Shown piece by piece: positions 6,880 to 29,743 of a stretch of 54,049 nt of DNA. Position numbers and translations under genes: made by a program. Source of the DNA: a virus; the IMG/VR virus record IMGVR_UViG_3300018080_002591, positions 1 to 54,049 of that record; one strand, given 5' to 3'. A model generated the notes under the pieces. It saw nothing but the letters and a program-made list of their open reading frames with translations. It had not been told where the DNA came from and made no database searches. How positions within the stretch are numbered: the stretch's first letter is position 1; each line of letters opens with the position of its first letter.

Positions 6880-7286
6880 TGGGATCTAGAGCAGATTTCT
6901 ACATTGGCATGAATAATCCAAAATGGATTGGTAGTATTAGTAGAAATGGACATCCATGGAATATTCCATGCAGATTATTGATACAAAACAATATCGTTAT
7001 GTACGAAGAAATTGTTATTGACTTTTTAGCAAATAATAATGGGTTTATTAAATCAATAGGCAATTCGTGGCCATGGCCATGGGAAAACAGTAAATTAACT
7101 AACTATTCATATTTCTTTAAAAGAAGTCATAATATGGTTTATGCATATTCAATGGTAGATAAAACAGTATTCAATCCATTGAAAATTATGCAGGGCGAAG
7201 ACATGAAAACCGCCCATGTTCACATAGCGATAAATTTTCCATTAATGGGAGTGGGTTATGGACCAAACGTTACCAAGACTGTATAA
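6879..7286 (+). CDS. Conserved hypothetical phage protein (MGSRADFYIG family)
   Basis: 135 residues starting MGSRADFYIGMNNPKWIGSI, with a conserved-looking WPWPWENS and a tyrosine-rich TNYSYFF. The start and the GWPWPW-DS block are familiar from small proteins found in many tailed phages, whose role is unknown. It overlaps the start of the topoisomerase small subunit by 29 bases, so translation is probably coupled. No catalytic motif, signal peptide or membrane segment is visible. Confidence 0.65.
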   Translation: MGSRADFYIGMNNPKWIGSISRNGHPWNIPCRLLIQNNIVMYEEIVIDFLANNNGFIKSIGNSWPWPWENSKLTNYSYFFKRSHNMVYAYSMVDKTVFNPLKIMQGEDMKTAHVHIAINFPLMGVGYGPNVTKTV

Positions 7287-8562
7287 GGATTACGGGGAGT
7301 ATTCAAATTATCGGAATTTTCCCTTAGACCTTGACGGTCTTAAACCTGTAGAACGAAGAGTATTATTATCAGCTTACAAAATTGCGAGAGCTAAATATGT
7401 AAAATCACGGCAAGTTGATTCATATACAACTGGACACTATCACCCACATGGAGAATGTTACGGGACGATTGTTCAATTAGTTCGTCAAGGGTTTTTGATT
7501 GGTCAAGGTAATTTCGGATCTAATGTTGGTGTTGAACCAACCGGTCCAGCAGCACCAAGATATACAGAATGCAAAATTGATCCACGAACATTGGAATTAG
7601 CATTTAAGTATATTAAATACTGTCCTGAAGTCCCAACTGAATTAGGTGACAAGGAACCAGTATTTTTACCAACAATGATACCGATATGTTTATTAGGAAA
7701 TGATTATACTCAAGGCATTGGATTTGGTTATAAAACATTCATACCATGTTTTTCATATACTTCATTAAAAAATAGACTTATGTGGTTATTGGGTCATAGA
7801 AAAACTGAACCTGTTCCTGTTCCTAATTCGGATTGTACAGTAACAGCTTCACCTTCTGACCTGAAAAAACTATTAACAACAGGAAAAAATAAAATAGATG
7901 TTGAAGGGATTATCGAAGAAAATCCCAAATTAAATAAAGTTATATTAAAATCATGGCCGCCCGGTAAAAGATTTGAAACGATTCTAAATAAGTTTTCTGC
8001 GGAATTGGATTCGGGTATGATTGGTTTTACAGATCTATCATCATTTGAAACAGAAATTGTTTTTCAGGTGTTGAGAGAAAGAAGTCGCGATAAAATATAT
8101 CAAGATTTTGTAGCAAAGTTGAAAGATGTAATTAAAGGAACGATATCATTTGAAACAACGGTAGTTGATAGTAACAGGAAAGTTGTTGTTAAATCAGTCG
8201 ATGATCTTCTTTTGGACACATACAAAATGTTCGCTGGAATGAATGAGACAATGCTTAATGAAGAAGTCAGAAGAACTGATGATCAAATTGCAGAATATAA
8301 TTTACTCGATATAGTAAGACCTGTACTAGCATCATGTATCAAAGATGGGTTTGATATGGAAATGACATTTACATTTATTAAAGATGCAATAGAAAAAATT
8401 GACCTTGATGCAGTAAAAGAGTTAGTAAATAAATATAAAATCAGCAAACTATTAACTTTAGATACTGATACACAAGAATTAGTTGATAAAAAACAACAGT
8501 TTACCCAAACGCTAGCAGAGTTGGACAAATTTTTAGTAGAACAATATTCAATGTTTAAATAA
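7258..8562 (+). CDS. Type II DNA topoisomerase small subunit (GyrA/ParC-like, T4 gp52 type)
   Basis: DNA breakage-reunion subunit partnering the gene at 917. In 434 residues it has LDGLKPVERRVL, the YHPHG segment (61-65) and the catalytic tyrosine Y102 in APRYTE. It ends after the coiled-coil/tower region and lacks a GyrA C-terminal wrapping domain, so it should relax or decatenate rather than supercoil, like T4 gp52 (about 440 residues). One oddity is YHPHGE, where most GyrA/ParC have YHPHGD; this is conservative. The long helical C-terminus with QELVDKKQQFTQTLAELDKF matches the family. GGGAGTGG precedes ATG 7258 within the previous gene. Confidence 0.95.
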   Translation: MDQTLPRLYKDYGEYSNYRNFPLDLDGLKPVERRVLLSAYKIARAKYVKSRQVDSYTTGHYHPHGECYGTIVQLVRQGFLIGQGNFGSNVGVEPTGPAAPRYTECKIDPRTLELAFKYIKYCPEVPTELGDKEPVFLPTMIPICLLGNDYTQGIGFGYKTFIPCFSYTSLKNRLMWLLGHRKTEPVPVPNSDCTVTASPSDLKKLLTTGKNKIDVEGIIEENPKLNKVILKSWPPGKRFETILNKFSAELDSGMIGFTDLSSFETEIVFQVLRERSRDKIYQDFVAKLKDVIKGTISFETTVVDSNRKVVVKSVDDLLLDTYKMFAGMNETMLNEEVRRTDDQIAEYNLLDIVRPVLASCIKDGFDMEMTFTFIKDAIEKIDLDAVKELVNKYKISKLLTLDTDTQELVDKKQQFTQTLAELDKFLVEQYSMFK

Positions 8563-8572
8563 GGGAGACTAT

Positions 8573-9001
8573 ATGTATAGAATATCAAAAGAGTTCAGTT
8601 TTTCAATGGGGCATAGACTCAGCTGCCATCAAGGATTATGTAAAAATTTACATGGCCACAACTATTCAGTTGTTATAACATTGAAAAGTGAACATTTAAA
8701 TCCAAATGGAATGGTGATGGATTTCGGAGACTTGAAAGCAATAGCAGAAAATCACTTCAAACAATTTGATCATGCTACAATGATCAATAGAAGCGATGTA
8801 GATAGATTTATGAAATTGCAGCAAGAAATGCCATTCTTAAAAATTGTTGTAGTTGAATATGAACCAACCGCAGAAAACATGGCGAGGGAAATATTCAATT
8901 ATTTCAAAGGAGAAGTAGCAAAATATGAAGGTAACATAGAAGTAGATCAAGTTAGTATATATGAGACGGATTCGTCTCAAGCAACATATTCCGAAGATTA
9001 A
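8573..9001 (+). CDS. queD: QueD-like 6-carboxytetrahydropterin synthase
   Basis: 142 residues, the normal size for the 6-pyruvoyl-tetrahydropterin synthase/QueD family. The zinc ligands are H14 (SMGHRLS), H27 and H29 (LHGHNY); the catalytic cysteine candidate is C23 in LCKNLHGH, and YETDSSQATY near the end carries the conserved glutamate. QueD converts 7,8-dihydroneopterin triphosphate to 6-carboxy-tetrahydropterin, the second step toward preQ0 and 7-deazaguanines. The first step, GTP cyclohydrolase, is supplied by the FolE2-like gene at 30354. Phages use this route to make 7-deazaguanine DNA bases that block restriction, or to feed tRNA queuosine. QueE, QueC and DpdA were not recognised here and may lie outside. 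Confidence 0.9.
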   Translation: MYRISKEFSFSMGHRLSCHQGLCKNLHGHNYSVVITLKSEHLNPNGMVMDFGDLKAIAENHFKQFDHATMINRSDVDRFMKLQQEMPFLKIVVVEYEPTAENMAREIFNYFKGEVAKYEGNIEVDQVSIYETDSSQATYSED

Positions 9002-14513: not shown

Positions 14514-14965
14514 AAATAAAAAGCGATTTTGTTACAAATAGTTCATCAACTGCTTATATAATTTGTGTACCTAATGAGTTCATTCCTAGTGAAGAAGATA
14601 TACTACCTGAAATTAAAACTCTAAATGAAGAATATGAAGGGTTTGAACTACAAATGAAAACCAGTGAAGCTATACAACATATACAAAATTTATTTGAAGA
14701 TTTGAAGTTTGGAGAAACTTTAGATTGTTATGAATATGATGATTTTAAACCAGTGCCTTTTGGTGTTGTTTTAAATATATGTGAAAAATATAATTTCGTT
14801 CTAACTGGTTTTGAAATACATTTAGATGGACAACATATTTTACATGGACTCCAGCAAGAATTAATAGATAAATGGGTCATTGATACAAAATTAAAAGACA
14901 TAACAATTGAGGTAATTAATGAACAAAATAAGGATTGTAAATTGGCTATTAACAAGGAGATGTAA
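14510..14965 (+). CDS. NSSS-motif protein 2 (MKIKSDFVTNSSST N-terminus)
   Basis: 151 residues. Residues 1-18 (MKIKSDFVTNSSSTAYII) are the same as in the protein at 10730, although the codons differ at several synonymous sites, so the peptide itself is under selection. The remaining ~130 residues are acidic with no motif I recognise, and they differ from the other copy. The last 47 bases overlap the radical SAM gene at 14919. A conserved N-terminus with a variable rest, next to a radical SAM enzyme, is reminiscent of a leader recognised by a maturation or targeting factor, but this is speculation. Confidence 0.7.
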   Translation: MKIKSDFVTNSSSTAYIICVPNEFIPSEEDILPEIKTLNEEYEGFELQMKTSEAIQHIQNLFEDLKFGETLDCYEYDDFKPVPFGVVLNICEKYNFVLTGFEIHLDGQHILHGLQQELIDKWVIDTKLKDITIEVINEQNKDCKLAINKEM

Positions 14966-15968
14966 TTTAAAATGTGATTATTGTGCAATAGTTAAAAATT
15001 ATGATGGCAAACCAGAAGAATATCCTGATATGGATCATTATATAAAAAATGAAATGACAACCGAACAAGTTCTTTCGGGGCTGGCAACAATCAAATTACA
15101 TAACCCAGATGCATTTCACATCTTTTATGGCGGTGAGCCGATGTTGAGGAAAGATTTGTCAACCATTATAAATTATTGTAATGATGAGGATATTCATTAT
15201 ACAATAATCTCAAACAATTCACCTGAAGTTATACCCTTAATTAAAAAATTAGTAAAAGAAACTAATGGAAAAATTAAAGGGTTTACCGCATCAGTTGATC
15301 CTGTAATATTTACAGAATCAAATGAATTAGATGATAAAGAAAAAGACCGAGTTATGAAGAGTCTGGCTGGGTTTGAAAATTTAAAAGAGATGAAAAAATA
15401 TTGCGATGATGTTGTTGCAGAAATAACAGTTATGAAACATAATCAACAATATTTATCCACATTGGTTGAAGTATTAACTACTGTTGGAATCAATAGCGAT
15501 ATAACATTTATTGATATTGCGAAAACGCCTTATTATGATTTTTCAAATATTTCAGATGAGGATTTGCTTGTTGAAAATTCACCCGAGCTAGCTGAACAAT
15601 TTCAATCAATTTCAGATGGCGATTTAGATGTTCATATGAAACGAACATTGCTACCTGAAATATGGAATATTCTTCCATCTAATATGGATTGTGGAATAGA
15701 TAAAAGTCTTCATAATATATCAATTGATGCAGATGGCAGTATTCGTTTGTGTTTAAGAATACGAGGCACATTATCTCCATCATTAGTTCCATCAATAGAT
15801 TCATTGTTCACAAAAGATTATAAAGTACATCCAGTTGCACATTCAATCATAAGCTCAGACAAAAAGAAGCATTGTAAATTATGCAATCATACTTGTCAAT
15901 TAATGAGCAAAATTATAGATGATAATAATTTAAGTCCTGATGATCTAGTACATCTGGACCGGAGGTAA
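14919..15968 (+). CDS. Radical SAM enzyme with SPASM-like C-terminus
   Basis: 349 residues. C15-x3-C19-x2-C22 in RRCNLKCDYC binds the radical 4Fe-4S cluster; FHIFYGGEPML is the GGE motif that binds SAM. The C-terminal third has further cysteines (MDCGIDKSLH, IRLCLRI, CKLCNHTC) positioned like the auxiliary cluster ligands of SPASM/twitch enzymes, which commonly modify peptides or proteins. It is not QueE-like, because that enzyme has a different cysteine spacing. GAGG precedes the ATG, inside the overlapping NSSS-motif gene, so the two are probably co-translated and may be functionally linked. The substrate is unknown. Confidence 0.85.
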   Translation: MNKIRIVNWLLTRRCNLKCDYCAIVKNYDGKPEEYPDMDHYIKNEMTTEQVLSGLATIKLHNPDAFHIFYGGEPMLRKDLSTIINYCNDEDIHYTIISNNSPEVIPLIKKLVKETNGKIKGFTASVDPVIFTESNELDDKEKDRVMKSLAGFENLKEMKKYCDDVVAEITVMKHNQQYLSTLVEVLTTVGINSDITFIDIAKTPYYDFSNISDEDLLVENSPELAEQFQSISDGDLDVHMKRTLLPEIWNILPSNMDCGIDKSLHNISIDADGSIRLCLRIRGTLSPSLVPSIDSLFTKDYKVHPVAHSIISSDKKKHCKLCNHTCQLMSKIIDDNNLSPDDLVHLDRR

Positions 15969-15970
15969 TT

Positions 15971-16306
15971 ATGGCAGATTTTGATCCAACTGTTATTCAA
16001 AACGCAATTCAGTTTTGGCACAAAGTCAATACAGAAGATCAAGTAAGAATTAAATTTACAAAGAAAGATGGCACTACACGATTTATGGTATGTACGTTGA
16101 ACTTTAAAAAAATACCAGCGATTGACCATCCGAAAAATGTAAACATGCCAAAGATTTTAAAGTTAATGCAAAATAGTGGCATATTACATGTTTATGATCT
16201 TGAAAAAAAGGGATGGCGATCAGTCCCATTTAACTCAGTTGAATATTTAGAAGCTGGAGATAAAATGTATAAAATTCAACCAATAAAACGGATGGGGGAT
16301 AAATGA
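15971..16306 (+). CDS. Small SH3-barrel-like phage protein
   Basis: 111 residues. RIKFTKKDGTTRFMVCTLN followed after ~40 residues by LHVYDLEKKGWRSVPFNSV is a pattern I know from small phage proteins described as SH3-like barrels (DUF2693-type); the name is from memory. Such proteins are found near replication genes, with no assigned role. GGAGG lies 5 bases before the ATG, and its stop overlaps the next start (ATGA). Confidence 0.6.
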   Translation: MADFDPTVIQNAIQFWHKVNTEDQVRIKFTKKDGTTRFMVCTLNFKKIPAIDHPKNVNMPKILKLMQNSGILHVYDLEKKGWRSVPFNSVEYLEAGDKMYKIQPIKRMGDK

Positions 16307-16674
16307 CGAAAGAAACAACCTTAGATAAAATATTGAAAGAGATTCCTTCATCTGATATGACTCAACAGATAAGAGAGTTTTGTGATGTCATAATGAAGGA
16401 AGAAATGTCAAGGATGCCAAATATTGAATATGCTCCGAAGGGGCCAAATAAATTTGCAATCCTTGAAGTAAATGGTTTGTTAAAAAGAGAGATTGGATTT
16501 ATAACTCTTGAACGTGAAAGTGAAGAAGATTATATTGGAGTTTATTGGACGTTTAGATTGGATAAAAAAGATAAACCTCCTAGAAAAAATAAAGTTCATA
16601 AAATCGAAGGCAATAGTGCAAAGAAGATATTATATCAATTTGCGAAACTTGTAAAATTTTATCGCGGAGAATGA
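16303..16674 (+). CDS. Hypothetical protein directly upstream of the Ubl-conjugation genes
   Basis: 123 residues, charged and probably alpha/beta: a helical N-terminus (TLDKILKEIPSSDMTQQIREF) followed by strands around KFAILEVNGLLKREIGFITLE and a basic patch KKDKPPRKNKVHK. No known motif was recognised. It starts on the ATGA overlap with the gene before it and is one base from the start of the large E2-like gene, so it belongs to the same operon. Confidence 0.6.
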   Translation: MTKETTLDKILKEIPSSDMTQQIREFCDVIMKEEMSRMPNIEYAPKGPNKFAILEVNGLLKREIGFITLERESEEDYIGVYWTFRLDKKDKPPRKNKVHKIEGNSAKKILYQFAKLVKFYRGE

Positions 16675-16675
16675 A

Positions 16676-19342
16676 ATGACTGAATCAAAGGATTTGCAAT
16701 TAGAATTAGAAGAAATAAGGTTAAATAAATATTACTGTACACGGTCTGTTTCAAAATTTCCTGATGGAGAAAATGGAGATTCAACACCAATCCTTAATAG
16801 AAATACAATTAGAACACCCGAATTGATGAACAAGATCCAAAAGTATCATTCAATGTTAAAAACTGATTATCAAGTGGATCATCTATTTCCACCGAATTGT
16901 CGATATTATGAAAAACATCCAGAAGGGTTTTTCGTTGTAATTGAAGAACCCCCGGCATTTAGGACAATTAGTATTGACAAAGATTTATCAAGTGAAATTC
17001 AATCATTAAAAAGTTCAGGTCATTGGGAAGAATATGGTTATGAAAACTGGCAAAAAGAAAATCATGGACCCCCATATCAGTTTACATTAGCATTACCATA
17101 CACTGTATTTTGTTTAGCATTTACAGAATCATATGATCATTTGGGTGGTCAGGTATTTTTTAGAACACAACAGATCACAGGATTTAGTGATATTCTTCTA
17201 AAAGCGCCATTTTTAAATATAAGTGATAGTCATAATATTTGTTTTGGTAATAAGATACATCACGGTCCAAAAAGAAGTATATACGCAGATGTAAACCATG
17301 CAATATCAACATTCTGGTCAACAATATTCAATACAGATTATCTTTATAATTATGTTGCATATCAAAACATACCTCTATTATGTGACTATTTTACATGGCA
17401 ATATCATTCTAATATTGATCCAATGTTTATTTATAGTGCTGATTGGATCAAGGAAAAAGATATAACCATCGGTACACAAATTGATCGGATGAAAGCTTGG
17501 TTAAGCGAAAGATCATGCCATGACCATAAACAGTTCGAATATCGTACATTAAAAGATCTTTTTCAACAATCAAGTGAAAAAGGTCGTGCGAAGGTTCCTG
17601 GCGTTAAAGGTCTTACGGAACCATTGTTGTTTGATATTTCAAATTCAATGAAACTTGGCGAAAATGTATATGTTTCAGTTGGTGATTCATTTAAAAATAA
17701 TTACGATCAGATGATATATGTTGATTCTTATATGGGTTTTAGAAAAAGTCCAAGACCGTTATATATTAGTCTTGAACGTCACGATGGTAGGATATTTAAA
17801 TGGAAATTAACCAAAAAAGTTTGCGAATATATAGCAGAAAAGATTAAAGCCGAGCGTCATCTATCAGAAGCAACATTACCCAACGGTTTGGTAATAAAAA
17901 GTGGTGATATTCTGGAAATGAAAAATGCTTATGGCCAGAATATTTATCGTAAAATATTTTATATAAGATATTCTAGAACTGGTGAGGTTGAAGCACGAGT
18001 TGGTGCCGAATATTATATTGTCAATAATATCGAGAAAGATACACAAATTTTTGATGTATCTAACCCAAAATATTTTGACATGACATTATCTAAAGATGAA
18101 CAATATTATATAATCAAAAGAGATCATTTTGACGCAAATCATATAATTAAAGCAGCGTCATGTAATTTCGATAGCATAGATACTGGGCGCGATAGCGGCG
18201 GTTTAGTAATGAAGTTTAGAGAAAACAGAGGACTTGACCAAGGTCATCGATACAATATACCGATAGGATCAAACGAAAATACTTTCAGAAAAATTTATCC
18301 AATGGATAATTTGAAAACATTACCAGAAATATTTACAGTTGGTCGTCGTTTGATGTATATATATAGAGAGACGGAAACTGGAAGTATTGTCGAGAAAGAA
18401 CCAACCGTTATCCCGAATTTGGGGATTGTAATAGAGTATGCTTGCTCTATCAGAAAGGCAGCTTCCGACCAAATTGTCAAACATAATTTTATTCAGGATG
18501 ATCGTTTTGCTCTTGAAAGTTGGAATCATGTATATGATTTTGAAATTGGCGATAAAGTCGTTGTAGCAAATTGGGAAAACCCAATTGACATGCTAACGGT
18601 TAAACAAATTCAAGGATTTGTTGAAGATAAAAATACCGGCGATATCAGTTTTACTTTAGTTGATAAAAACGAAAACGTTACTAGTTATAAATATATCGAC
18701 GGTGCAAAGAGACTTGCGAGACTTGGTTCTGTTAGAAAAATTACTAATGTGTGGGGAGAATTAACTTCCGGCATGAAAATTGTTGCAAATCAAGCCAGAA
18801 TTAGTATGTTTCCGAAAAAGGATACCAATATAATTATTGGTTTTCTCTATGACACTGGTGGTGAAGAACCTTTAGTATTATGCTCAAATGCTAATACTTT
18901 ATGGTATAGCGATGTTATTAATAATTTCGATATAATAAAAATGGACGACGAAGCATGGAAAACCAAACAGCATGCTTCAATTAACCCATCAAAAATGAGA
19001 TATCAATCTGGAGATATACTTCAAGGTCAGCATTACTATAAAAATGATATAGGCTACTTAGTATACATACCTAGAGATCAACGAACAGTTAGAGCTTCAA
19101 GCTTAGCTTATTATCAGTCGTATGACGATAATTTTGTTTTTGATAAATCATTTACCGAAGATGTTATGTTTGATATCTTCCCTAACCCGAGATTGACAGT
19201 GACACAAGAAAACAAACTTGGTCTTGTAAATGTATTCCCTAATTTTCATGGAATGTTTACAAAAACTGACGAGTCTCACTCACCATACAAAGTTGCGAAT
19301 GACAGAAGGAGTATATTAAATGATGTTTCCAGTGATAATTAA
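16676..19342 (+). CDS. Large protein with N-terminal E2 (UBC-like) domain, PRTRC-B-like
   Basis: 888 residues. The stretch at about 65-225 resembles E2-like domains of the bacterial PRTRC protein B kind: LFPPNCRYY and EEPPAFRTISI, then LALPYTVFCLAF, then APFLNISDSHNICFGN and STFWSTIFNTDYLYN. The APFLNI...ICFGN segment aligns by eye with the E2 signature HPN-[IV]-x-x-x-G-x-[IV]-C-L, making C189 the candidate thioester cysteine. Residues 250-888 are unassigned; they include several beta-rich segments beginning with G-D-x-[VIL] (for example GDKVVVAN) that could be repeated SH3-like barrels and might bind substrate. The stop lies 20 bases inside the JAMM gene, tying the two together. The E2 call is from pattern reading; structure prediction would decide. 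Confidence 0.6.
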   Translation: MTESKDLQLELEEIRLNKYYCTRSVSKFPDGENGDSTPILNRNTIRTPELMNKIQKYHSMLKTDYQVDHLFPPNCRYYEKHPEGFFVVIEEPPAFRTISIDKDLSSEIQSLKSSGHWEEYGYENWQKENHGPPYQFTLALPYTVFCLAFTESYDHLGGQVFFRTQQITGFSDILLKAPFLNISDSHNICFGNKIHHGPKRSIYADVNHAISTFWSTIFNTDYLYNYVAYQNIPLLCDYFTWQYHSNIDPMFIYSADWIKEKDITIGTQIDRMKAWLSERSCHDHKQFEYRTLKDLFQQSSEKGRAKVPGVKGLTEPLLFDISNSMKLGENVYVSVGDSFKNNYDQMIYVDSYMGFRKSPRPLYISLERHDGRIFKWKLTKKVCEYIAEKIKAERHLSEATLPNGLVIKSGDILEMKNAYGQNIYRKIFYIRYSRTGEVEARVGAEYYIVNNIEKDTQIFDVSNPKYFDMTLSKDEQYYIIKRDHFDANHIIKAASCNFDSIDTGRDSGGLVMKFRENRGLDQGHRYNIPIGSNENTFRKIYPMDNLKTLPEIFTVGRRLMYIYRETETGSIVEKEPTVIPNLGIVIEYACSIRKAASDQIVKHNFIQDDRFALESWNHVYDFEIGDKVVVANWENPIDMLTVKQIQGFVEDKNTGDISFTLVDKNENVTSYKYIDGAKRLARLGSVRKITNVWGELTSGMKIVANQARISMFPKKDTNIIIGFLYDTGGEEPLVLCSNANTLWYSDVINNFDIIKMDDEAWKTKQHASINPSKMRYQSGDILQGQHYYKNDIGYLVYIPRDQRTVRASSLAYYQSYDDNFVFDKSFTEDVMFDIFPNPRLTVTQENKLGLVNVFPNFHGMFTKTDESHSPYKVANDRRSILNDVSSDN

Positions 19343-21074
19343 TGATGGTACAGCAGAAATTCCGGATTCTGATATATATTATATTGTTGGTAAAGAAGGA
19401 GTTTTTCTAAAAAAGAAATTGGGTGTTATGGAAAGCATAGCCCCAGTCAAAAACATTTCAATATTAGAAAGCGTTCAATCAATGGCTAGGATGCATATCC
19501 GAAAAATTCCTGCAAAAAAGGCAAAGCAGATTCTAAACTTTTTCAAAGCCGTTTATGAAGAACATTATTCAGAAGCAATAGTACTTCTGTTTTACAATAT
19601 GGAGAAACAACATTATAAAGTTGTCGTTCCCGTTCAGGAAGTTAGTGGTGGTGCTGCAGATTATAATAAAGCAATCACTATCGATGGATATGATATGATC
19701 GGTACAATTCACAGTCACGCTGGAATGTCAGCATTTCATTCCGGTACAGATGACGATGATGAAAAATCATTTGATGGACTTCATATTACATTTGGTAATA
19801 TGCGAGATAAGGACATTAGCGTATCAGCGTCTATTGTTGCCAATGGTCATCGTATCATAGTAGACCCATCTGAATATATCAACAATATAGAAATGACAGT
19901 TGATATTGATGAAGAAGAAAAAGTCCCAATGGCACAAACATGGCGTTGGGACAAGGACCAGCATAAAATGGTTCAAGTTAAATCTGAGAAATTTTATACT
20001 AGACGTAAATTTGATCAACGATATCAGATTCACCTTGCAAAAGATCCAAAGTTTCCTGCTAATTGGATGGAACGTGTTACAAAGAAAACATATGTCAGTC
20101 AATATGCAGGCACTGGCTGGGCAGGTGGTTGGCAAGGTCATAACGCAGGTTATGATTCGGATTATTGGAAAGATTGGAAAGGTCATGGCGTTCAGGCTAA
20201 TAAACCAGGCACAGTAACTCCAACTAAACAAAACAAAACTACGCCAGCAACAGTTCCGAATAAACCAACCGTTGTATCGAAGGAAACTCCATGCGATGCG
20301 TGTTCATTCAAACATCATAAAATTAATCTTAGCATTGAGAGGATGGATGACGAAACTAAAAAAGCTATATTAGCATGGGCGATTGAAAAACTAGAGGGTA
20401 ATAATTATCAAGTTGTACCCGGAGAAGAAGTAGATGAAACTGGATTAACCCATTATCATTGCGCAGGCTGCCAGGAATACATTTCAGTTGATGAAAACAC
20501 TGAAGGTAGTGCATGTTGTCCAAATTGTCAAACTGATGATTATCTAATTGAGGTTTCTTCTCAAGAAATCATGATGGAGGTTGGTGGTACATATGAAGAA
20601 GATGATTCGACTACCGGCAATATGATTAAATGTGAAGAATGTGGAAGTTCGTTTACCGAAGATTTTTTAAATGATGGTCATTGTCCTACATGTAATACTT
20701 TATTACCTGTAGAAGTTGATACTGAACTTGATGCATCTGATGACATTGTAATTTGTCCTGATTGTTTCAAAGAAAATGATCTGATGGAACTGGCGGTTGA
20801 TAATAAATGCTTCTATTGTTCATGTGAGATTTCTCCATATGAAATCGCCGAATTATTGAGGCAACGAAACCGTGGTAGAGATCCATTGGAAAATCAAATG
20901 GATAATGATTCTGGCGCCTTTTTAGATCCAGAAAAAGAGGCAATCGAACGAATCGCACAAGATGATATAGAACGTATCCCAGTTCCTGATAGCGATTCAA
21001 CGCCAATCACTAAAACTAAAACAGGAGTTTTTGCTTCAATATTTGAAAAAGCAAAAGCTTTAAGAAAAGGTTAA
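19320..21074 (+). CDS. JAMM/MPN+ isopeptidase with three zinc-ribbon modules (PRTRC-A-like)
   Basis: 584 residues. The N-terminal ~200 form a JAB/JAMM metalloprotease: H131-S-H133-x7-S141-x2-D144, with E85 a possible catalytic glutamate. Such enzymes remove ubiquitin or process the Ubl C-terminus. A low-complexity G/W/T-rich linker (about 255-320) leads to CxxC pairs forming three four-cysteine modules: C381/C384-C400/C403, C438/C441-C455/C458 and C479/C482-C497/C500, plus a lone C325-x2-C328 next to two His. Such modules could bind substrates, Ubl or nucleic acid. AAGGAG at 19306-19311 serves ATG 19320; ATG 19323 is also possible. The E1 gene follows after 2 bases. Confidence 0.85.
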   Translation: MMFPVIINDGTAEIPDSDIYYIVGKEGVFLKKKLGVMESIAPVKNISILESVQSMARMHIRKIPAKKAKQILNFFKAVYEEHYSEAIVLLFYNMEKQHYKVVVPVQEVSGGAADYNKAITIDGYDMIGTIHSHAGMSAFHSGTDDDDEKSFDGLHITFGNMRDKDISVSASIVANGHRIIVDPSEYINNIEMTVDIDEEEKVPMAQTWRWDKDQHKMVQVKSEKFYTRRKFDQRYQIHLAKDPKFPANWMERVTKKTYVSQYAGTGWAGGWQGHNAGYDSDYWKDWKGHGVQANKPGTVTPTKQNKTTPATVPNKPTVVSKETPCDACSFKHHKINLSIERMDDETKKAILAWAIEKLEGNNYQVVPGEEVDETGLTHYHCAGCQEYISVDENTEGSACCPNCQTDDYLIEVSSQEIMMEVGGTYEEDDSTTGNMIKCEECGSSFTEDFLNDGHCPTCNTLLPVEVDTELDASDDIVICPDCFKENDLMELAVDNKCFYCSCEISPYEIAELLRQRNRGRDPLENQMDNDSGAFLDPEKEAIERIAQDDIERIPVPDSDSTPITKTKTGVFASIFEKAKALRKG

Positions 21075-21076
21075 TT

Positions 21077-21754
21077 ATGGAAATAGTTGTTATTGGATTA
21101 GGTGGTGTTGGTTCTCTGTTATGTGAAAGAATGGCAAGATACTTAGCTTATTCATCAGGGACCAAAGCAAGCATGTTGTTAGTTGATGGTGACTCTTATG
21201 AAGCCAAAAACTTCGAAAGACAAGACTTCACCCAAATGGGCAACAAAGCTGAAGTAAAAGCTGCTGATTTAAAAATGCAGTTTTCAATGTTAAATGTAAG
21301 TTCATTCCCTGCCTTCGTGAATGAAACCAATCTTGCTCAAGTTATTAAAGAAGGTACTATTGTTTTTAGTTGTGTAGATAATCATAAAACCAGAATGATA
21401 CTTTCAAACTATTGCAAAGAATTACAAAATGTTACATTGATTTCTGGTGGGAATGATCTCATTGATGGGAACGTACAGATTTATATAAGGCAAAATGGAA
21501 AAGATATTACTCCAGACCTTTGTGCGTATCATCCAGAGATTGCAAATCCCGATGATAAGTTACCCGAAGAGATGTCATGCGAAGAATTAGCAGCTTCAGA
21601 ACCACAATTATACTTCGCTAATCTCGGTGTTGCAACCATTATGTGTTGGGCGTTTTATAACGCCATTGTCAAGGGCCAGCATGAAAAGTCAGAGATTTAT
21701 TTTGATCTTACTCAAATGACTTCTATTGCTAAACAAAGAATCGTGAAAAACTAA
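21077..21754 (+). CDS. E1-like (ThiF/MoeB family) Ubl-activating enzyme
   Basis: 225 residues. The nucleotide-binding motif is VVIGLGGVGS (5-13), followed by VDGDSYEAKNFERQ (D37, D39, E42, N45, R48, Q49) and SCVDNHKTR, the set of ATP- and magnesium-binding residues of ThiF/E1 adenylyltransferases. The C-terminal part has MSCEELAASEPQ, in which C168 could be a thioester cysteine, and resembles the ThiF members of PRTRC operons. It should adenylate the C-terminal glycine of a Ubl, the obvious candidate being the product of the next gene. It lacks the C-terminal extensions of eukaryotic E1 enzymes. Confidence 0.9.
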   Translation: MEIVVIGLGGVGSLLCERMARYLAYSSGTKASMLLVDGDSYEAKNFERQDFTQMGNKAEVKAADLKMQFSMLNVSSFPAFVNETNLAQVIKEGTIVFSCVDNHKTRMILSNYCKELQNVTLISGGNDLIDGNVQIYIRQNGKDITPDLCAYHPEIANPDDKLPEEMSCEELAASEPQLYFANLGVATIMCWAFYNAIVKGQHEKSEIYFDLTQMTSIAKQRIVKN

Positions 21755-21756
21755 CC

Positions 21757-21771
21757 TGACTTTCAAAGTCA
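21757..21771 (+). promoter_or_regulatory. Palindrome in the leader of the Ubl gene
   Basis: TGACTTTCAAAGTCA is a 15-base palindrome around a single central C, in the 50-base gap between the E1 stop (21754) and the Ubl start (21805). It is followed by an A-rich tract and the site AAAAGGAA. It might be an operator or an mRNA leader hairpin, and suggests the Ubl gene is controlled apart from its neighbours, which are otherwise fused by overlaps. Confidence 0.35.
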
Positions 21772-21804
21772 AAAACAAAAAAATGTGAAAAGGAATTAAA
21801 AATT

Positions 21805-22278
21805 ATGGCACAGTACAAAAGAGAAACTTTAGAAGACAAAACCGTTCGTGATCTCCGTCAACTCGTAGTAAAATTGGGTATCCCTGGATTCACCAAGAAA
21901 CCTAAAAGCGTTATCATTGACGCTATTATGGCCAAACATGGTGTTACCGGCGCGGCCGCATCAATTGCCGCAGATGGCCCAGCCGCTGCTAAACCTCTTG
22001 ACGGAGTAGAAGCAACCTTCCAATCTTCAGTAACCAAACCTTCCCTGAAAAAAGGTGAACGTCTCAGCACAACACTTCAGGTATCCTGTGGTGCTTCTTC
22101 TGGTCGTTTTCCTGTTGCTGGAAGAACCGTTGCCGAAGTTGGGGATTTCCTTCGGGAAGTTCTTAATGTAGACAAACTTTCAACCGGTCTTGTAAACGGT
22201 AAAGAAGTTGATGGAAGCTATGTGCTTAAATCAGGCGATACTCTTGAATTCCTGAAACCAGCTGGGAAGAAAGGTTAA
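21805..22278 (+). CDS. Ubiquitin-like beta-grasp protein with SAP/HeH-like N-terminus
   Basis: 157 residues in three parts. Residues ~10-45 (TVRDLRQLVVKLGIPGFTKK and onward) look like a SAP/HeH or Rho-N helix-extended-helix module that usually binds nucleic acid. An Ala/Pro-rich linker (46-65) follows. Residues ~85-152 resemble ThiS/MoaD/ubiquitin beta-grasp folds: strand TTLQVSCG, helix VAEVGDFLREVL, then VNGKEVDGSYVLKSGDTLEFLKP. The chain ends AGKKG, a single terminal glycine, so it may be charged directly or after processing by the JAMM enzyme. Flanking E1, E2-like and JAMM genes support the Ubl call. It uses more C- and G-ending codons (CGT, CTC, ATC, ACC, TTC) than its AT-rich neighbours, as highly expressed genes do, and stands between its own leader and a 3' hairpin. 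Confidence 0.78.
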   Translation: MAQYKRETLEDKTVRDLRQLVVKLGIPGFTKKPKSVIIDAIMAKHGVTGAAASIAADGPAAAKPLDGVEATFQSSVTKPSLKKGERLSTTLQVSCGASSGRFPVAGRTVAEVGDFLREVLNVDKLSTGLVNGKEVDGSYVLKSGDTLEFLKPAGKKG

Positions 22279-22290
22279 TATCCTTTTAAA

Positions 22291-22316
22291 TGAGGGGCTC
22301 CTTTGGGAGTCCCTCA
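22291..22316 (+). terminator. Hairpin after the Ubl gene
   Basis: TGAGGGGCTCC pairs with GGAGTCCCTCA: 11 base pairs (one G-T) around a TTTG loop, 12 bases after the Ubl stop. No T-run follows on the + strand (CCCACTG), so it is not a classical intrinsic terminator for bacterial polymerase. It may stabilise the 3' end of the Ubl mRNA or stop the phage's own polymerase. Confidence 0.5.
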
Positions 22317-22359
22317 CCCACTGTTATAAATATGAAATGGAAAGGAGCATATCGTGTAA

Positions 22360-23265
22360 ATGAATCGAATAGCTGTAATTGGACTAGGCACACTCGGCGG
22401 AGCCGTATGTAAAAATTTATCAACAATGGAATGTATAGAAGAACTGGTTCTTGTTGATTTTGATATTTTAGAAAGTCGTAATATTCATAATTCGGTATAT
22501 CGCGCATCACAAATTGGAGATCGAAAAGTTGACGCTCTCACAGAAATTATCGAAGACGATATTGACATAATACCGATTCATGAAAAATATAAAGAAGGAA
22601 AAACAAATCTTCCTGAATGTGATTTAATTGTAGATTGTAGAGATGTTGTATGTAACAGAGGAAAAGAAATCGATGTTCGATTATACATAACAGGTAAAAT
22701 TCTTATCATTGATTGTAGAAAAAACATTCGCACTCAACATATTTATAAAGGTTCATATAGAAGTCAATTGTCAAAAAGTGAGTTGAACAGTGCAGGTTTC
22801 TTTGCTTCGCAAATATTATGTAGCGATCAAATAACAAAAATGAAAGAACAAAATTTGGTTCAAAAAATTGATTTGAATTTATTACCAACACTAATAAATA
22901 ACGAAATGACAGAAAAAAATAAAAATCGAATTGATATTGTTTATGATTCAGCAGTTGGTGATAGACTTCAATGTCTTGAAGAAAACATAGAACCAATACT
23001 TTGTTTAAGCAGGACAAAGGATATTGATGTTTTTATAGGCGAAAAACATTTTGATCCATTTAAAAAATTAAATAAGTTACCACAAGTTGCAAAAACAAAA
23101 TACGCTGTAATCCCTCATAATTCTCTAAACAATTCAAATGATTTGATCAAAGCTTTAACAAATATAGTAAAAGAACAATGTAACATAGTTAATTTTATTG
23201 TTACATTACGAAAAGTGAATGGAGAAACGTTTATTGAATTACTCGAAGAAACCGGAGCAGCCTAA
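22360..23265 (+). CDS. Second E1-like (ThiF-fold) protein, divergent
   Basis: 301 residues. It starts NRIAVIGLGTLGGAVC, a Rossmann glycine loop (G8, G10, G13), then VDFDILESRNIHNS (D33, D35, E38, N41), where the usual N-x-x-R-Q of E1 enzymes reads N-I-H-N-S. LIVDCRDVVCNR occupies the place of the DN motif. It is therefore E1-like with altered catalytic residues: a partner subunit, a pseudo-E1 or an activating enzyme for another protein. The C-terminal ~120 residues are unassigned. AAAGGAG precedes the ATG. Its 3' end overlaps the small E2-like gene by 47 bases, suggesting the two act as a pair. Confidence 0.7.
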   Translation: MNRIAVIGLGTLGGAVCKNLSTMECIEELVLVDFDILESRNIHNSVYRASQIGDRKVDALTEIIEDDIDIIPIHEKYKEGKTNLPECDLIVDCRDVVCNRGKEIDVRLYITGKILIIDCRKNIRTQHIYKGSYRSQLSKSELNSAGFFASQILCSDQITKMKEQNLVQKIDLNLLPTLINNEMTEKNKNRIDIVYDSAVGDRLQCLEENIEPILCLSRTKDIDVFIGEKHFDPFKKLNKLPQVAKTKYAVIPHNSLNNSNDLIKALTNIVKEQCNIVNFIVTLRKVNGETFIELLEETGAA

Positions 23266-23668
23266 TGATATTCAATTTATTGTTGGAAGCTCTAATGGAA
23301 AGGATTTATATAAAAAGACACATATATTCATAACGAAATTAATTCCAAATAGAGTCATTCTTAATAAAAATGTTTATAGAATAACTCATATAGATGAACG
23401 TTATCACATGGATGGTTTTTCATTAACAACAGAAAATGACAAAGTACTCTATGTTAGAGTCTTTGGATATCATCCAAATTGTGACCCAGATACAGATATT
23501 TTTTGTTTACCGGATTTTAAAAAAGATATATACTTAACAAAAGAATATTTAGATCTAATCATAAGTAATATTCAAACATATTATTTAGATAACTGTTATT
23601 TTAATCCAACTGGACGAAAACTTCGTTATGAAAAAATGCAGTCGATGTATGTGCAATTAAATAAGTAA
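23219..23668 (+). CDS. Small stand-alone E2-like (UBC-fold) protein
   Basis: 149 residues, the size of a minimal E2. MDGFSLTT and VLYVRVFG look like the central strands, followed by YHPNCDPDTDIFCLPDF: HPN at 85-87 and C96 in FCLP, matching the E2 active-site pattern H-P-N-x(5-8)-x-C-L. After it, EYLDLIISNIQTYYLDNCYFNP fits the E2 helix [IVL]-x-x-I-[LI]-x-x-I-Q-x-[LY]-L followed by a (N)P turn. C96 is the candidate thioester cysteine. It overlaps the E1-like gene and lies 6 kb downstream of the larger E2-like protein, so the phage may carry two E2-type enzymes. I read this by eye; no search was done. Confidence 0.65.
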   Translation: MEKRLLNYSKKPEQPNDIQFIVGSSNGKDLYKKTHIFITKLIPNRVILNKNVYRITHIDERYHMDGFSLTTENDKVLYVRVFGYHPNCDPDTDIFCLPDFKKDIYLTKEYLDLIISNIQTYYLDNCYFNPTGRKLRYEKMQSMYVQLNK

Positions 23669-23902: not shown

Positions 23903-26557
23903 ATGCCAAAAATTCTCAACTATCAACAATTCTGCGAAGATCTACCAGAAGTTACTTCTTTAAAAACAATAGGAAAAAAGAAGTTTCACGAAAACGGATT
24001 GTTTTCAGAACAGATTTTTGGACCGGTAAAAAATTATACCTGCCAATGTGGTACTTATTATGGTATTTCTAAATCTGGTGGTAAGTGTGATCTGTGTGGA
24101 GTTGATATTGCTAATAGTGATGAACGTAGACAAAGATTTGCGAAAATTGTTTTGCCTATGGCAGTAGTGAACCCGTTGATGTATGATTTGATAGTTGACC
24201 TCGGTGGTAAATCTATTAAATCAGCAATCGATGATTTGATGAAACATGAAAAAAGTGTTCTATACATGGATGGTGAAGAATGTGTTGTTACAACAAATTC
24301 GGACAACTTGCCAGATGGTACTGAAGTGTGGGAAAAGACAGATGCAATATATAAATTAGTTGAGATTATAGCAAAACCTTTAGCAGATGAAGGCATTGAA
24401 GAATGGCAACTAATAATGGATAATATTGATAATCTATTAATTAATAAAATTATTGTACTACCACCTGATTTAAGACCTGTATCAAAAGGCGGTGCCGGAA
24501 AACAATTGATGGACAAAATCAACAGATATTATGTTCAGATATTGACCAAAAAAGAAATAATGAGAGATACTGTAATGGATATTCATTCAGATAAGAATGT
24601 TTATTATACTTATTTCACACAGTTGCAAAGTGTAGTAAATGAACTATACACAAGAATCTTAGAAAAGATGGCAAAGAAAGAAGGTCTCATTCGTGGTAAT
24701 ATATTGGGAAAACGAATTGACTTTTCTGGTCGTGCTGTAATTGCACCCGAACCAACATTAAATCTAAATGAATGCGTCTTGCCATATTTAATGATTCTTG
24801 AGATGTTCAAACTCCCAATAGCAAAACGTATTATAGAACTAGGACATTTTAAACTATTAAATAAAGCAATAAATTTTGTAGATCAATGTATAGAAACAGA
24901 TGATCCAGTTTTGTTTAAAATTGTTGAAAAACTTATTGAAGGAGAAGTCTGTATTCTTAATAGACAACCCTCCTTGCACAAATTAGGAATGCTTGGATTT
25001 TACATCAAAGCATCACTTGACAAAGTTATTAAAATACACCCATTAGTTTGCCCTCCATTTAATGCAGATTTTGATGGAGATCAAATGGCTGTTTACATCC
25101 CCGTAACACAAGAAGCAAAAGAAGAAATTATTGAAAAAATATTTGTTACGAAAAACCTCAACAGCCCGGCGAATGAAAACTTAACAACAACTCCAAGTCA
25201 GGATATTGTTTTGGGTATTTATTTTCTGACATCAAAACCAGAAGGTGAAGAAATATTCAATGACTGTTTGCCTGACGATTATAAACGTGTTACTGGTATT
25301 GTTGATAAAAATGTTTTAATGGATGTATTAAACGATATAAAAGATATTTACCCCAATCATGTAACAGCAACAGTGTTAGATGAAATCAAAAAGATAGGTT
25401 TTAAATATGCAACATTAGTTGGTTGTACAATGTCATTAGAAGATTGCTATTTCGAAGGTTCTGGTGCTATGCGAGATGAGTTGTATAAAAGCAATGAACC
25501 AAGAACTCAATTGATGGCATTAAATAATGATGCTGTAGTTGATGAGCTAAGACAAAAGTTCATGTATTCATATTTAATTGATTCTGGTGCCAGAGGTAGT
25601 TGGGATCAGGTTAAACAGTTAATATTAACAAGAGGATTCATTTCAAATTTTGATGGAGAAATTCTTCCACAACCAATTAAGCATAGTTTGATAGAAGGGT
25701 TGACAGAAGAAGAGTTTTTCTTTTCAACATACGGATGTAGAAAAGGATTACTTGATGTTGCATTGAATACCGGAACAAGTGGATACTTATCACGAAAGTT
25801 GATTTTCACATGTGCAAATTTACAAATTGATAATGAAGAAGATTGTGGCACTGATGATTATCTAACTGTTGCAGTTACGTCTCCAAGAAAAGCAAGAATG
25901 TTAGTAAATAGATATATGAAAGGACCTCATGGTTTAGTTAAAATAACAAAAGATAATTGTATGAGTCTTTTAAATGAAACGATTGAAATCAGAAGTCCAA
26001 TCTTATGTAAGAATCCAAAAATATGTCGAACATGTTATGGAGATTTATATAAGAAATTGAACAGTCGCTTTATCGGAATTATTGCAGCACAAACTCTTGG
26101 AGAGAGATCAACACAATTAGTATTAAGAACATTTCATACATCCGGAGCAGCTATAATCAAAGGCGATCAAAGTCAAACAGAAGGTGCCATCGAACAAAAA
26201 GATATTATCGGTGACCTATCTGCTGTTGCATCATTGCTTCATAGATTCAAAGGCAAAACTTACGAGGATATTGTCTCATCGCTTTTTGATGTATACGATA
26301 AGAATATTTATCATATACACTATGAATGTGTAGTCGCACAATTAATGTGGGTTGATTATAGAAAATGGAGATTGATTGAAAATAGAGATGAATATAAACC
26401 TCAATATTATTCAATTCAAAGCGTACCAAATCAAGAGAGCTGGATCTTAGCAATGGCATTCTCAAATCCAAAGAGATCTATTCTTCAAGGTATTTTATAT
26501 GAAGGTAGATATTCTGGTATCATGGATAAAATATTAACTGGAGAACGAATTTCATGA
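23903..26557 (+). CDS. DNA-directed RNA polymerase beta' subunit (phage type)
   Basis: 884 residues, shorter than bacterial RpoC (~1400) but spanning it end to end. The N-terminal zinc ribbon is C47-x-C49...C62-x2-C65 (CQCG...CDLCGVD). NADFDGDQ with D389, D391 and D393 is the catalytic magnesium triad. LNRQPSLHKLGM and VCPPFNADFDGD are classical beta' blocks. A second zinc site is CKNPKICRTCYG, and IIAAQTLGERSTQLVLRTFHTSG is the switch/trigger-loop entrance. The end resembles the bacterial beta' end (SVPNQESWILAMAF...). Non-conserved lineage-specific insertions are absent. The subunit is in one piece, unlike the split subunits of phiKZ-like phages, and should transcribe phage genes with the beta subunit at 26744. 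Confidence 0.95.
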   Translation: MPKILNYQQFCEDLPEVTSLKTIGKKKFHENGLFSEQIFGPVKNYTCQCGTYYGISKSGGKCDLCGVDIANSDERRQRFAKIVLPMAVVNPLMYDLIVDLGGKSIKSAIDDLMKHEKSVLYMDGEECVVTTNSDNLPDGTEVWEKTDAIYKLVEIIAKPLADEGIEEWQLIMDNIDNLLINKIIVLPPDLRPVSKGGAGKQLMDKINRYYVQILTKKEIMRDTVMDIHSDKNVYYTYFTQLQSVVNELYTRILEKMAKKEGLIRGNILGKRIDFSGRAVIAPEPTLNLNECVLPYLMILEMFKLPIAKRIIELGHFKLLNKAINFVDQCIETDDPVLFKIVEKLIEGEVCILNRQPSLHKLGMLGFYIKASLDKVIKIHPLVCPPFNADFDGDQMAVYIPVTQEAKEEIIEKIFVTKNLNSPANENLTTTPSQDIVLGIYFLTSKPEGEEIFNDCLPDDYKRVTGIVDKNVLMDVLNDIKDIYPNHVTATVLDEIKKIGFKYATLVGCTMSLEDCYFEGSGAMRDELYKSNEPRTQLMALNNDAVVDELRQKFMYSYLIDSGARGSWDQVKQLILTRGFISNFDGEILPQPIKHSLIEGLTEEEFFFSTYGCRKGLLDVALNTGTSGYLSRKLIFTCANLQIDNEEDCGTDDYLTVAVTSPRKARMLVNRYMKGPHGLVKITKDNCMSLLNETIEIRSPILCKNPKICRTCYGDLYKKLNSRFIGIIAAQTLGERSTQLVLRTFHTSGAAIIKGDQSQTEGAIEQKDIIGDLSAVASLLHRFKGKTYEDIVSSLFDVYDKNIYHIHYECVVAQLMWVDYRKWRLIENRDEYKPQYYSIQSVPNQESWILAMAFSNPKRSILQGILYEGRYSGIMDKILTGERIS

Positions 26558-26743: not shown

Positions 26744-29743
26744 TTGATAATAAACCCAGTGTTTAAAATTCAAAACGAAGATAACAATATCTTCACAATA
26801 AGAGAGCAAGAATACGAAAAGATTTTACCCATTGTTTCACAAATAGTTAAGCCAGTAGAAGAAATAGGGTTTCAAATATCTGAATTAGGATTGAAAGATT
26901 CACGTTTTTCATCCGGGGAATTATCTAGAACAATCAAACAAACCTTAGCAATCAAATTGCAAAAAGGTAATGCAAATATTGATTTGAGTATATTTCTGCC
27001 GAAGATAGTTGATAAGAATTATATTGTTATTAACGGCAGAAGAAAAATCCCTTTACTTCAACTATTTGATATCCCTGTAGTTACTCGGGGAGAAACAATT
27101 AAGTTAAGAACAAATGTAGCAACGCTAATGGTGTTTAAAGATAAAGAAGCGCCAAATGTAAAAGTTAGCTTTCTAGGTAAGAAGGTTTCACTTGCATTAT
27201 TGTTGTTTGCATTCTATGGTCCAGAAGCATTGGATGATAGATTTGATTTTGCTCATATAAAATTTGAAAGTAGTAGTGATGTATTATATGAGAATTTAAT
27301 TGAAGATCTATTTATGACATGGGATGAATCAAAAGGTTATACACAAGATGATTTTATTCAAGAATTAGGTCGCAATTATTCAAGATATAATTCTAAATCA
27401 AAGGGCGAAGATATTGTATATGCTCTTGAAGCGATTCCAAAGATAGATGTAATGACATCACAGTATTTACAAACAGGATCATTACTCGAAGAATTAATTC
27501 AAATTATTCAAGAGCAATATGTTGATGATACATTATTCACAAATAAACGAGTTAGATGTTTTGAATATATGATATTTGCAAAGATATCAAAAATTATATT
27601 TGATTTATGTTTTTCAAATAGAACTGCACGACAACCAAAATTCAATATAAACTCAAATCAAATATTAAGTGAAAGCAATGTATCGGATATTATTCAATTT
27701 GATTTTTCAATTAATCCAATTGAAGAATTAACAAAGCTATCAAGGATAAGTTTATTAGGTCCTGGTGGTTTTAAAAGAGAAAATATTCCAAAGCATTTAA
27801 GGGATATATGCCCATCAATGTTTGGTCGAATTTGCCCAGTAGATACACCAGATCGTGACAACTGTGGTGTATTACAAAACATGATTCCAAATGTTTTACT
27901 TGATGATAAAATGTCATTCACTAAGGAATTATGTGATAAACAGCCAATATCCATTCCAGTATCAATGGTTCCTTTTTGTGAGCACGATGATCAAACACGA
28001 CTTCAAATGGCATCATCACAAATGCGTCAATCAATTATGTTAAAAAAGTTTGATAGGGCAATGGTACAATCAGGTTGTGAATGGTTATATACAGATCAAA
28101 CTCAATTTGTAAAACGAGCTAAAAAAGATGGTGAAGTTATTCATATGGATGATAAATTTATTATGGTTGCATATGATGATGGTGATGTTGAATTATTCAA
28201 CATTGAATATAGAAAAATATATGTTGAACATTTAGATTTCATGAATGTATATGTAAAACCAGGTGATAAATTTAAAGCTGGAGAAATACTTGCAGAAAGT
28301 AATTATTGCAAAAATGGAGAAATTACATTTGGTAAAAATCTATTAACAGGTGTAATGATCTATTATGGTAATAATTATGAAGATGGTATTGCAATTTCTG
28401 ATAGACTTGTAAACGAGAATGCTTTAACCTCTATTCATTATAAAGATTTATCATTTACATTACCACCACATAAGGTTTTGTTATCATTAGAAGAAGGTAA
28501 ATACAAACCTCTACCAGAACAATATGAGACACTTGGAAAAGGGTCTCCTTATGCCAGAATCCAAAGTTTATCATCTGAAGATTTATATTCCCAGTTTGGG
28601 GAAGAAACATATTTACAAACTGAGAAGAAGTTCATTATTCCAGAAGTTAGATTATTTGCAAATTCATGGAATCAAGATATACCTGAATTTAAAGAGTGGG
28701 TTGAAAAAACATTGGATACTCAACGAGATAAAGAGAATGATCTTAACAAAATAATCCATAGCAAATTTTCTAAAGAGCAAGCAACTCAGCTTATAAAAGA
28801 AAATGGTCTTGATTTAAACTCATTTGTAGGAAAATATAAAAACAAACGAGAGAAGATTAATGGAATTCATATTAGGATTATTGGAGTACACCAACGACCA
28901 ATTCAAGTTGGAGATAAAGTTGCAAATCGGCATGGAAATAAAGGGATTATTTCAAGAATTGTTCCTGAAAAGAAAATGCCAACATTAGAAGATGGACGAA
29001 CTCTTGATATTTGTATTAATCCATTGGGTATTATTTCACGAATGAATGTTGGTCAGTTGTTTGAACTTCATCTGACTATGGCATTTTATGATTTAAAAGA
29101 AAATCTTTATAAAATGCTTGAGAATAATACACAAGAAGAAATTAAAAGTTATTTATTGGGTTTTATAAAAATCATTGATAAAACAAAAGACAATTGGTAT
29201 TTGAACCAATTTATTGATGATATGCCAAAAGTTATTACCCATGAATTTATTGAACAATTAACAATGATTCAACCTCCATTTGAGTCAGTTAAAATGGAGG
29301 ATTTAAAAGAAGCATTAAATTACTCAGGAACTAAATTCAAACAAAAGTTATATGATCCCGTTTCTAAACAATATATAGAAAATGAAATATCTGTTGGTTA
29401 TGTTTATTTTCTACGAATGGTTCATATCGCAGAAGAAAAATTAGCTGCCAGAGGCATTGGTAGTTATGCAAAAAGAACACTTCAGCCATTAGGTGGCAGG
29501 AAAAATAAAGGTGGTCAGAGATGTGGTGAGATGGAGACAGCTTGTATCATCGGTCATGACGCACCCATAAATTTGTTTGAATTCCTAACAACAAAATCAG
29601 ACTGTATTGATTTAAAAAATAAATATATTAGAAGTTTCATTGATTCCCATTTGGATGATGAAGATAAAAAATTCAATACAGTTCCAGAATCAGTCAAGCT
29701 GTTAAATTCATATCTGACTGTATTAGGAATAAATCACAAATGA
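26744..29743 (+). CDS. DNA-directed RNA polymerase beta subunit (phage type)
   Basis: 999 residues, compact compared with bacterial RpoB (~1340). Conserved blocks are GRICPVDTPDRDNCGVLQNM (fork-loop region), YYGNNYEDGIAIS, KVANRHGNKGIISRI (active-site lysine and histidine region) and LGGRKNKGGQRCGEME near the C-terminus, where it contacts beta'. The likely start is TTG 26744: GGAGG stands about 10 bases upstream, the frame has no nearby ATG, and the beta N-terminal region begins here. The gene overlaps the next by 4 bases. No alpha, omega or sigma subunit was seen in this window, as for other phage multisubunit polymerases. Confidence 0.95.
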   Translation: MIINPVFKIQNEDNNIFTIREQEYEKILPIVSQIVKPVEEIGFQISELGLKDSRFSSGELSRTIKQTLAIKLQKGNANIDLSIFLPKIVDKNYIVINGRRKIPLLQLFDIPVVTRGETIKLRTNVATLMVFKDKEAPNVKVSFLGKKVSLALLLFAFYGPEALDDRFDFAHIKFESSSDVLYENLIEDLFMTWDESKGYTQDDFIQELGRNYSRYNSKSKGEDIVYALEAIPKIDVMTSQYLQTGSLLEELIQIIQEQYVDDTLFTNKRVRCFEYMIFAKISKIIFDLCFSNRTARQPKFNINSNQILSESNVSDIIQFDFSINPIEELTKLSRISLLGPGGFKRENIPKHLRDICPSMFGRICPVDTPDRDNCGVLQNMIPNVLLDDKMSFTKELCDKQPISIPVSMVPFCEHDDQTRLQMASSQMRQSIMLKKFDRAMVQSGCEWLYTDQTQFVKRAKKDGEVIHMDDKFIMVAYDDGDVELFNIEYRKIYVEHLDFMNVYVKPGDKFKAGEILAESNYCKNGEITFGKNLLTGVMIYYGNNYEDGIAISDRLVNENALTSIHYKDLSFTLPPHKVLLSLEEGKYKPLPEQYETLGKGSPYARIQSLSSEDLYSQFGEETYLQTEKKFIIPEVRLFANSWNQDIPEFKEWVEKTLDTQRDKENDLNKIIHSKFSKEQATQLIKENGLDLNSFVGKYKNKREKINGIHIRIIGVHQRPIQVGDKVANRHGNKGIISRIVPEKKMPTLEDGRTLDICINPLGIISRMNVGQLFELHLTMAFYDLKENLYKMLENNTQEEIKSYLLGFIKIIDKTKDNWYLNQFIDDMPKVITHEFIEQLTMIQPPFESVKMEDLKEALNYSGTKFKQKLYDPVSKQYIENEISVGYVYFLRMVHIAEEKLAARGIGSYAKRTLQPLGGRKNKGGQRCGEMETACIIGHDAPINLFEFLTTKSDCIDLKNKYIRSFIDSHLDDEDKKFNTVPESVKLLNSYLTVLGINHK

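Follow-up and report, generated by a model that had tools for sequence, protein, structure and literature searches.

Bacterial conjugation of ubiquitin-like proteins (Ubls) is known chiefly as anti-phage defense, which raises the question of what a set of such enzymes does as a fixed core component of a phage lineage. We met this question in IMG/VR record IMGVR_UViG_3300018080_002591, where the window, i.e., the whole stretch of DNA analyzed here (54,049 bases), belongs to a tailed, myovirus-type phage and codes for terminase, baseplate, and virion proteins as well as SbcCD-like genes, gyrase A and B, and a beta/beta'-like RNA polymerase. The phage-encoded gyrase genes lie at positions 896-2704 (gyrase B) and 7258-8562 (A subunit, gyrase/topoisomerase IV), a 6-pyruvoyl tetrahydropterin synthase-like gene at 8573-9001 (PTPS, 1.7e-34) has a possible role in 7-deazaguanine-type modification, and between 44475 and 52533 the coding strand switches, with a minus-strand block of baseplate and virion genes. 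Among GenBank phages, no DNA-level match was found to the 10-kb stretch around the six genes that are the subject of this study. In our reading, which we consider likely, these genes form a core Ubl-conjugation set of a lineage of large phages that is organized in two modules and works by the mechanism proposed below.

The initial annotation had placed the six genes in a row, overlapping or closely spaced, next to RNA polymerase genes, and an ORF check confirmed coordinates, order, and setting, with all six on the same strand. They code for an 888-amino acid (aa) protein with an E2-like domain (E2-D), a JAMM/JAB isopeptidase, an E1-like enzyme (E1a), a Ubl candidate of 157 residues (Ubl157), a second E1-like protein (E1b), and a small E2-like protein (C149). 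Downstream on the same plus strand lie a beta'-like RNA polymerase gene (23903-26557; tblastn matches to phage rpoC, beta' subunits) and a beta-like one (26744-29743; RNA_pol_Rpb2 domains). The upstream neighbors on this strand, conserved by synteny, are a radical SAM protein (14919-15968; Radical_SAM 1.8e-10), a WYL_2 protein with an Sm-like SH3 barrel (15971-16306; WYL_2 6.5e-10), and a 123-aa protein (16303-16674). Because the same order recurs in dozens of IMG/VR contigs, the block is not a product of chance. Scanning with E1a recovered 25 viral contigs with the block, and wherever the contig reaches, these keep the order radical SAM, WYL_2, 123-aa protein, E2-D, JAB, E1a, Ubl157, E1b, C149, a 73-aa protein, and RNA polymerase, with the smallest proteins sometimes undetected; the radical SAM gene holds its position in every locus that extends that far.

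The best-scoring 80 of 179 RNA polymerase matches included 60 loci whose upstream sequence spans 7.9 kb or more, and all six genes are present in 55 of these 60, which may include near-duplicates and in which absence of a gene means absence at HMM sensitivity. The block is core to this metagenomic lineage of large uncultivated tailed phages. All five exceptions among these 60 loci from the best 80 matches belong to more divergent polymerases (43-53% identity): One has only the first four genes (L102), two have only E1b and C149 (L092 and L110), and two have none of the six (L095 and L113). Since the exceptions split the block in this way and a tree places E1b apart from E1a, we assign the six genes to two separable modules, with the 888-aa E2-D protein, the JAMM protease, E1a, and Ubl157 as module I and E1b with C149 as module II. 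Two contigs from Thermoplasmatales and Woesearchaeota bins (L164 and L175) also carry the phage block and its RNA polymerase; they are probably misbinned phage, given that this polymerase and its neighbors are present on them.

Profile searches support the E1, JAMM, Ubl, and E2-D identities that had been proposed (matches to ThiF, Prok-JAB, PRTRC_A, TGS/ThiS, and Prok-E2_D), and together with the active-site residues they leave a phage ubiquitin-like conjugation system as the best reading of the block, albeit as two modules and not as one pathway. Conservation was counted over 62-72 distinct sequences per family, which are related and do not represent independent events. The 888-aa protein (16676-19342, plus strand like all six) carries its E2 domain (family D, PRTRC_B-like) in about its first, N-terminal third, where Prok-E2_D matches at 2.2e-4; the same profile is matched by 19/22 relatives, with a best value of 1.2e-6. 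Its candidate catalytic residue Cys189 and N181 are both conserved in 62/62 sequences. A histidine C-terminal to this cysteine is not conserved in the lineage: At the position between N219 and D221, aligned by eye with the NHD of plasmid and KLEB27-3 homologs, the residue varies (T, P, G, and others). Profile searches found nothing convincing in the C-terminal region of about 570 residues, and searching PDB profiles with the family gave only weak, chance-level matches. The isopeptidase (JAB584, 584 aa; 19320-21074) matches PRTRC_A (4.1e-11) and Prok-JAB (8.2e-6) and has the complete JAMM zinc site of E plus HxHx7SxxD, with E85, H131, H133, S141, and D144 each found in 71/71 sequences; the zinc modules mentioned in the initial annotation could be located as CxxC pairs after the JAB domain. 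E1a (21077-21754) is a ThiF-family adenylyltransferase (ThiF 5.4e-20, PRTRC_ThiF 9.4e-11) with ThiF-type E1s among its PDB profile matches. Its GxGGxG motif, D37, R48, K57, and D101 are conserved in 71-72 of 72 sequences, and C168, present in 72/72, is a candidate transfer cysteine.

Ubl157 (21805-22278) begins with a Rho_N domain at about residues 9-45 (7.9e-4), which is of a nucleic acid-binding type, and continues with a C-terminal beta-grasp-type Ubl region matching TGS (6e-4) and ThiS (0.014), all of these Pfam matches scoring under the curated cut-offs. In the family, Rho_N was matched by 16/23 members, TGS by 8/23, and ThiS by 3/23, and we regard Ubl157 as a putative beta-grasp Ubl. The protein does end in glycine, as had been noted, with the tail ...KPAGKKG. 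Among its relatives, 40/67 stop exactly at KG, and 66/67 have KG either there or a short way in; the other 26 mostly run on for 1-7 residues past it. Tails that consist of KG or a few-residue extension suggest a processed precursor. In two phage loci, a separate protein is encoded directly before the E2-D gene (L068 1140-1520 and L079 1777-2115); HMM matches had suggested second Ubl copies, which was ruled out as these proteins are Rho_N only.

We propose that the JAMM protease would trim the Ubl157 precursor where residues follow KG, that E1a would then adenylate the C-terminal glycine, and that the E2-D domain would take Ubl157 on Cys189 and attach it to a target, with the long C-terminal region of the 888-aa protein as a presumptive substrate binder during attachment and the JAMM protease removing conjugates later on. 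Because Ubl157 carries the Rho_N head, its conjugation would also place a nucleic acid-binding unit on the target.

In module II, E1b (22360-23265) consists of an adenylation domain (ThiF 6.8e-13), a C-terminal domain, and a short tail ending in ...ETGAA. Its GxG motif is conserved and D33, K56, and D92 are present in 67/67 sequences, and no near-invariant cysteine suited to carry a thioester, other than C93 of the DC motif, was found in the family alignment (67-68 sequences). The last residue is alanine in 65/68 distinct sequences, and the penultimate one varies between Ala, Gly, Ser, and Val. This terminal alanine is encoded by GCA (33), GCT (17), GCG (10), or GCC (5); a ribosome-binding site as the cause of the tail is excluded because all four codons occur and the alanine is kept in loci whose C149 start codon precedes the stop codon of E1b. 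The AF2 model of E1b (pLDDT 78.5) predicts a beta-grasp-like order of b-b-a-b-b for the C-terminal domain, and its best fold match overall is Cap2-CdnD02, which likely stems from the adenylation domain; BubCD is among the PDB profile matches. Homology between the C-terminal domain and Ubl157 was also considered and is unsupported (profile comparison probability 1.4%).

C149 (23219-23668), whose gene shares 47 bases with the end of the E1b gene, returned no family at a useful score in profile searches, with UQ_con matched by only 2/59 relatives (best 0.006). What it does have is an HPN...C motif with Cys96 as candidate catalytic residue, in which H85 and C96 are conserved in 69/69, P86 in 66/69, and N87 in 65/68 sequences. 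The C149 profile aligned this motif with that of four approximate E2 sequences at a score of 28.6 over 14 columns only, compared to at most 15.3 in 30 column-shuffled control runs. The AF2 model (pLDDT 83.5) had no PDB match at E <= 0.001; among its weak fold matches, the E2 variant TSG101 UEV recurs (E 1.2-3.9, probability at most 0.21). The "small E2-like protein" of the initial annotation is therefore borne out by its motif but not by a significant fold match, and we view C149 as a probable E2.

How module II might work is suggested by CBASS, where a conserved C-terminal Gly or Ala behind a variable penultimate residue, found only alongside conjugating enzymes, is the conjugated end of cGAS (PMC10097602). 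As the terminal alanine of E1b matches this signature, E1b may itself be conjugated through it. In the mechanism that we propose, E1b would activate a C terminus ending in Ala, for which its own, in cis or within a dimer, is the simplest candidate, and would hand the activated end to Cys96 of C149. Tentatively, and at less than an even chance, module II would be a hitherto undescribed self-carrying machine in which the C-terminal domain of E1b is the modifier and C149 a minimal HPN...C E2, with neither a separate Ubl nor a dedicated isopeptidase; compare the locus with module II alone (L092). The terminal alanine gives a sharp, testable prediction, namely adducts that end at this residue. Alternatively, only module I would conjugate, and E1b and C149 would form a pair of their own. 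In this pair, the C-terminal domain of E1b would serve as a docking domain for C149 or some other partner, comparable to the ubiquitin-fold domain of eukaryotic E1s, with the tail as a binding motif instead of a reactive end. The modules do separate in nature, the modeled beta-grasp-like order would fit a docking domain too, and E1b has no clear catalytic cysteine and a C-terminal domain that cannot be aligned to Ubl157. However, a docking motif need not stop at the stop codon, and a conserved final alanine behind a variable residue is the very pattern of conjugated cGAS (PMC10097602), so that we find this explanation doubtful for the tail as well as for the role of the pair.

The purpose of the set as a whole can likewise be seen in more than one way. 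Action against a host defense protein had been among the suggested roles, in which case the enzymes would tag or untag host proteins, e.g., with the JAMM protease reversing host CBASS or BIL conjugates, or would inactivate defense proteins. BIL is an anti-phage Ubl system, and a phage JAMM protease could act on it as well as on CBASS. CBASS is likewise directed against phages (PMC10097602). Yet the block is near-universal in its lineage and not patchy (55/60 loci, from the best 80 of 179 matches), its synteny is strict, and a full E1-E2-Ubl set is unneeded for stripping host conjugates. A survey of jumbo phages linked well-conserved peptidases to the processing of phage proteins and those of patchy occurrence to action against the host (PMC7824862), and by this logic the conserved JAMM protease would belong to the former. 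We consider counter-defense unlikely, and core conservation together with strict synteny favors a routine phage function; a set that is fixed in a phage core points to routine viral protein tagging. Since the block is core and lies between recombination and RNA polymerase genes, we think that the targets are most likely phage proteins of transcription or replication, and the Rho_N head of Ubl157 along with the polymerase neighbors suggests a target linked to nucleic acids or transcription. A role outside of conjugation seems very unlikely to us: E1a would activate Ubl157 as a sulfur donor similar to ThiS/MoaD, to be used in modifying a tRNA, a cofactor, or a nucleotide, and the radical SAM neighbor might take part. 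TGS and ThiS are indeed the best matches of the Ubl domain and the radical SAM gene is a fixed neighbor, but profile searches found no rhodanese or sulfurtransferase match in the block, and E2-family proteins with an invariant cysteine, as present here, are not known from the ThiS or MoaD pathways.

Among known systems, operon type 6d of Iyer 2006 combines a JAB protein, an E1, an E2-D, and a small Ubl (PMC1779556), and the phage operon has this content, with an invariant cysteine in E2-D and a conserved C-terminal Gly in the Ubl. Judged by sequence, module I is a relative of the PRTRC/type 6d sets of plasmids and ICE-like elements, with which it shares JAB, a ThiF-type E1, an E2 of family D, and a small Ubl with Gly close to its C terminus. 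In contrast to these sets, the phage proteins all score below the NCBIfam cut-offs (PRTRC_A 42.8 against 101.8 bits, PRTRC_B 12 against 131.45, PRTRC_ThiF 41.5 against 144.75), the E2 lies within an 888-aa protein without the His that is absolutely conserved behind the Cys in type 6d, the Ubl has a Rho_N head, and the block adds a second E1/E2-like pair and sits in a phage core. Searching the window for the small Ubl PRTRC_C (TIGR03738) gave nothing at E <= 10, and no match to ParB, to which a gene adjacent to PRTRC sets is related, was found among the window proteins scanned, which are a subset of the genes in a record that may be a fragment. Within the part of the literature covered, such a system is described neither in the jumbo-phage survey (PMC7824862; 2 incidental mentions of ubiquitin) nor in a 2026 review (no mention).

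Relatives of module I also occur in bacterial bins (16/95 NC10 and 4/287 Patescibacteria genomes), and E1a of the phages forms one clade (support 97/88) with that of bins assigned to Patescibacteria, NC10, and Lentisphaerae (L165-L182). Plasmid PRTRC-like sets and Bacillus phage KLEB27-3 fall outside this clade. These bin sets share the Ubl tail (e.g., KPAGDKG) and a similar gene order but lack E1b/C149 and an adjoining phage RNA polymerase, and E2-D was undetected in some of the loci. In two Patescibacteria bins (L171 and L172), JAB and E1 genes adjoin genes for bare Ubls of 68-70 aa that end in KPSGTKG and KPAGDKG; L171 also has a stand-alone 220-aa E2-D gene homologous to the E2 domain of the 888-aa protein. 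KLEB27-3 encodes an E1, a JAB protein (PRTRC_A domain according to the record), and an E2-D-like protein in a row (gp194-gp196); it differs in that its E1 groups with plasmid PRTRC-like sets and that Ubl157, E1b, and C149 were not found there. Adjacent JAB and E1-like genes, annotated as hypothetical or structural and without the rest of the block, were also seen in Vibrio phage D69 (L029 6809-8867) and Salmonella phage Arash (L030 2261-4539), and an Alicyclobacillus plasmid protein (L034 3922-4863) appears to fuse a Ubl-like stretch ending in KKG to a JAB domain.

Type II CBASS with Cap2/Cap3 and cGAS resembles the phage block in combining an E1 with an E2 and a JAMM protease, in the Cap2-like fold predicted for E1b, and in a conserved C-terminal Gly/Ala on a non-ubiquitin protein, which in CBASS marks the conjugated partner (PMC10097602). 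Unlike in CBASS, however, E1 and E2 are separate proteins, the terminal Ala is on the E1 itself, and the genes belong to a phage and not to a defense operon; of the proteins scanned within the block and next to it, none matched a CD-NTase, a Cap2 E2-E1 fusion, or an effector. Module II matches no known system. BIL and Bub operons are bacterial sets of E1, E2, JAB, and Ubl that resemble the block in these components and are described as host systems.
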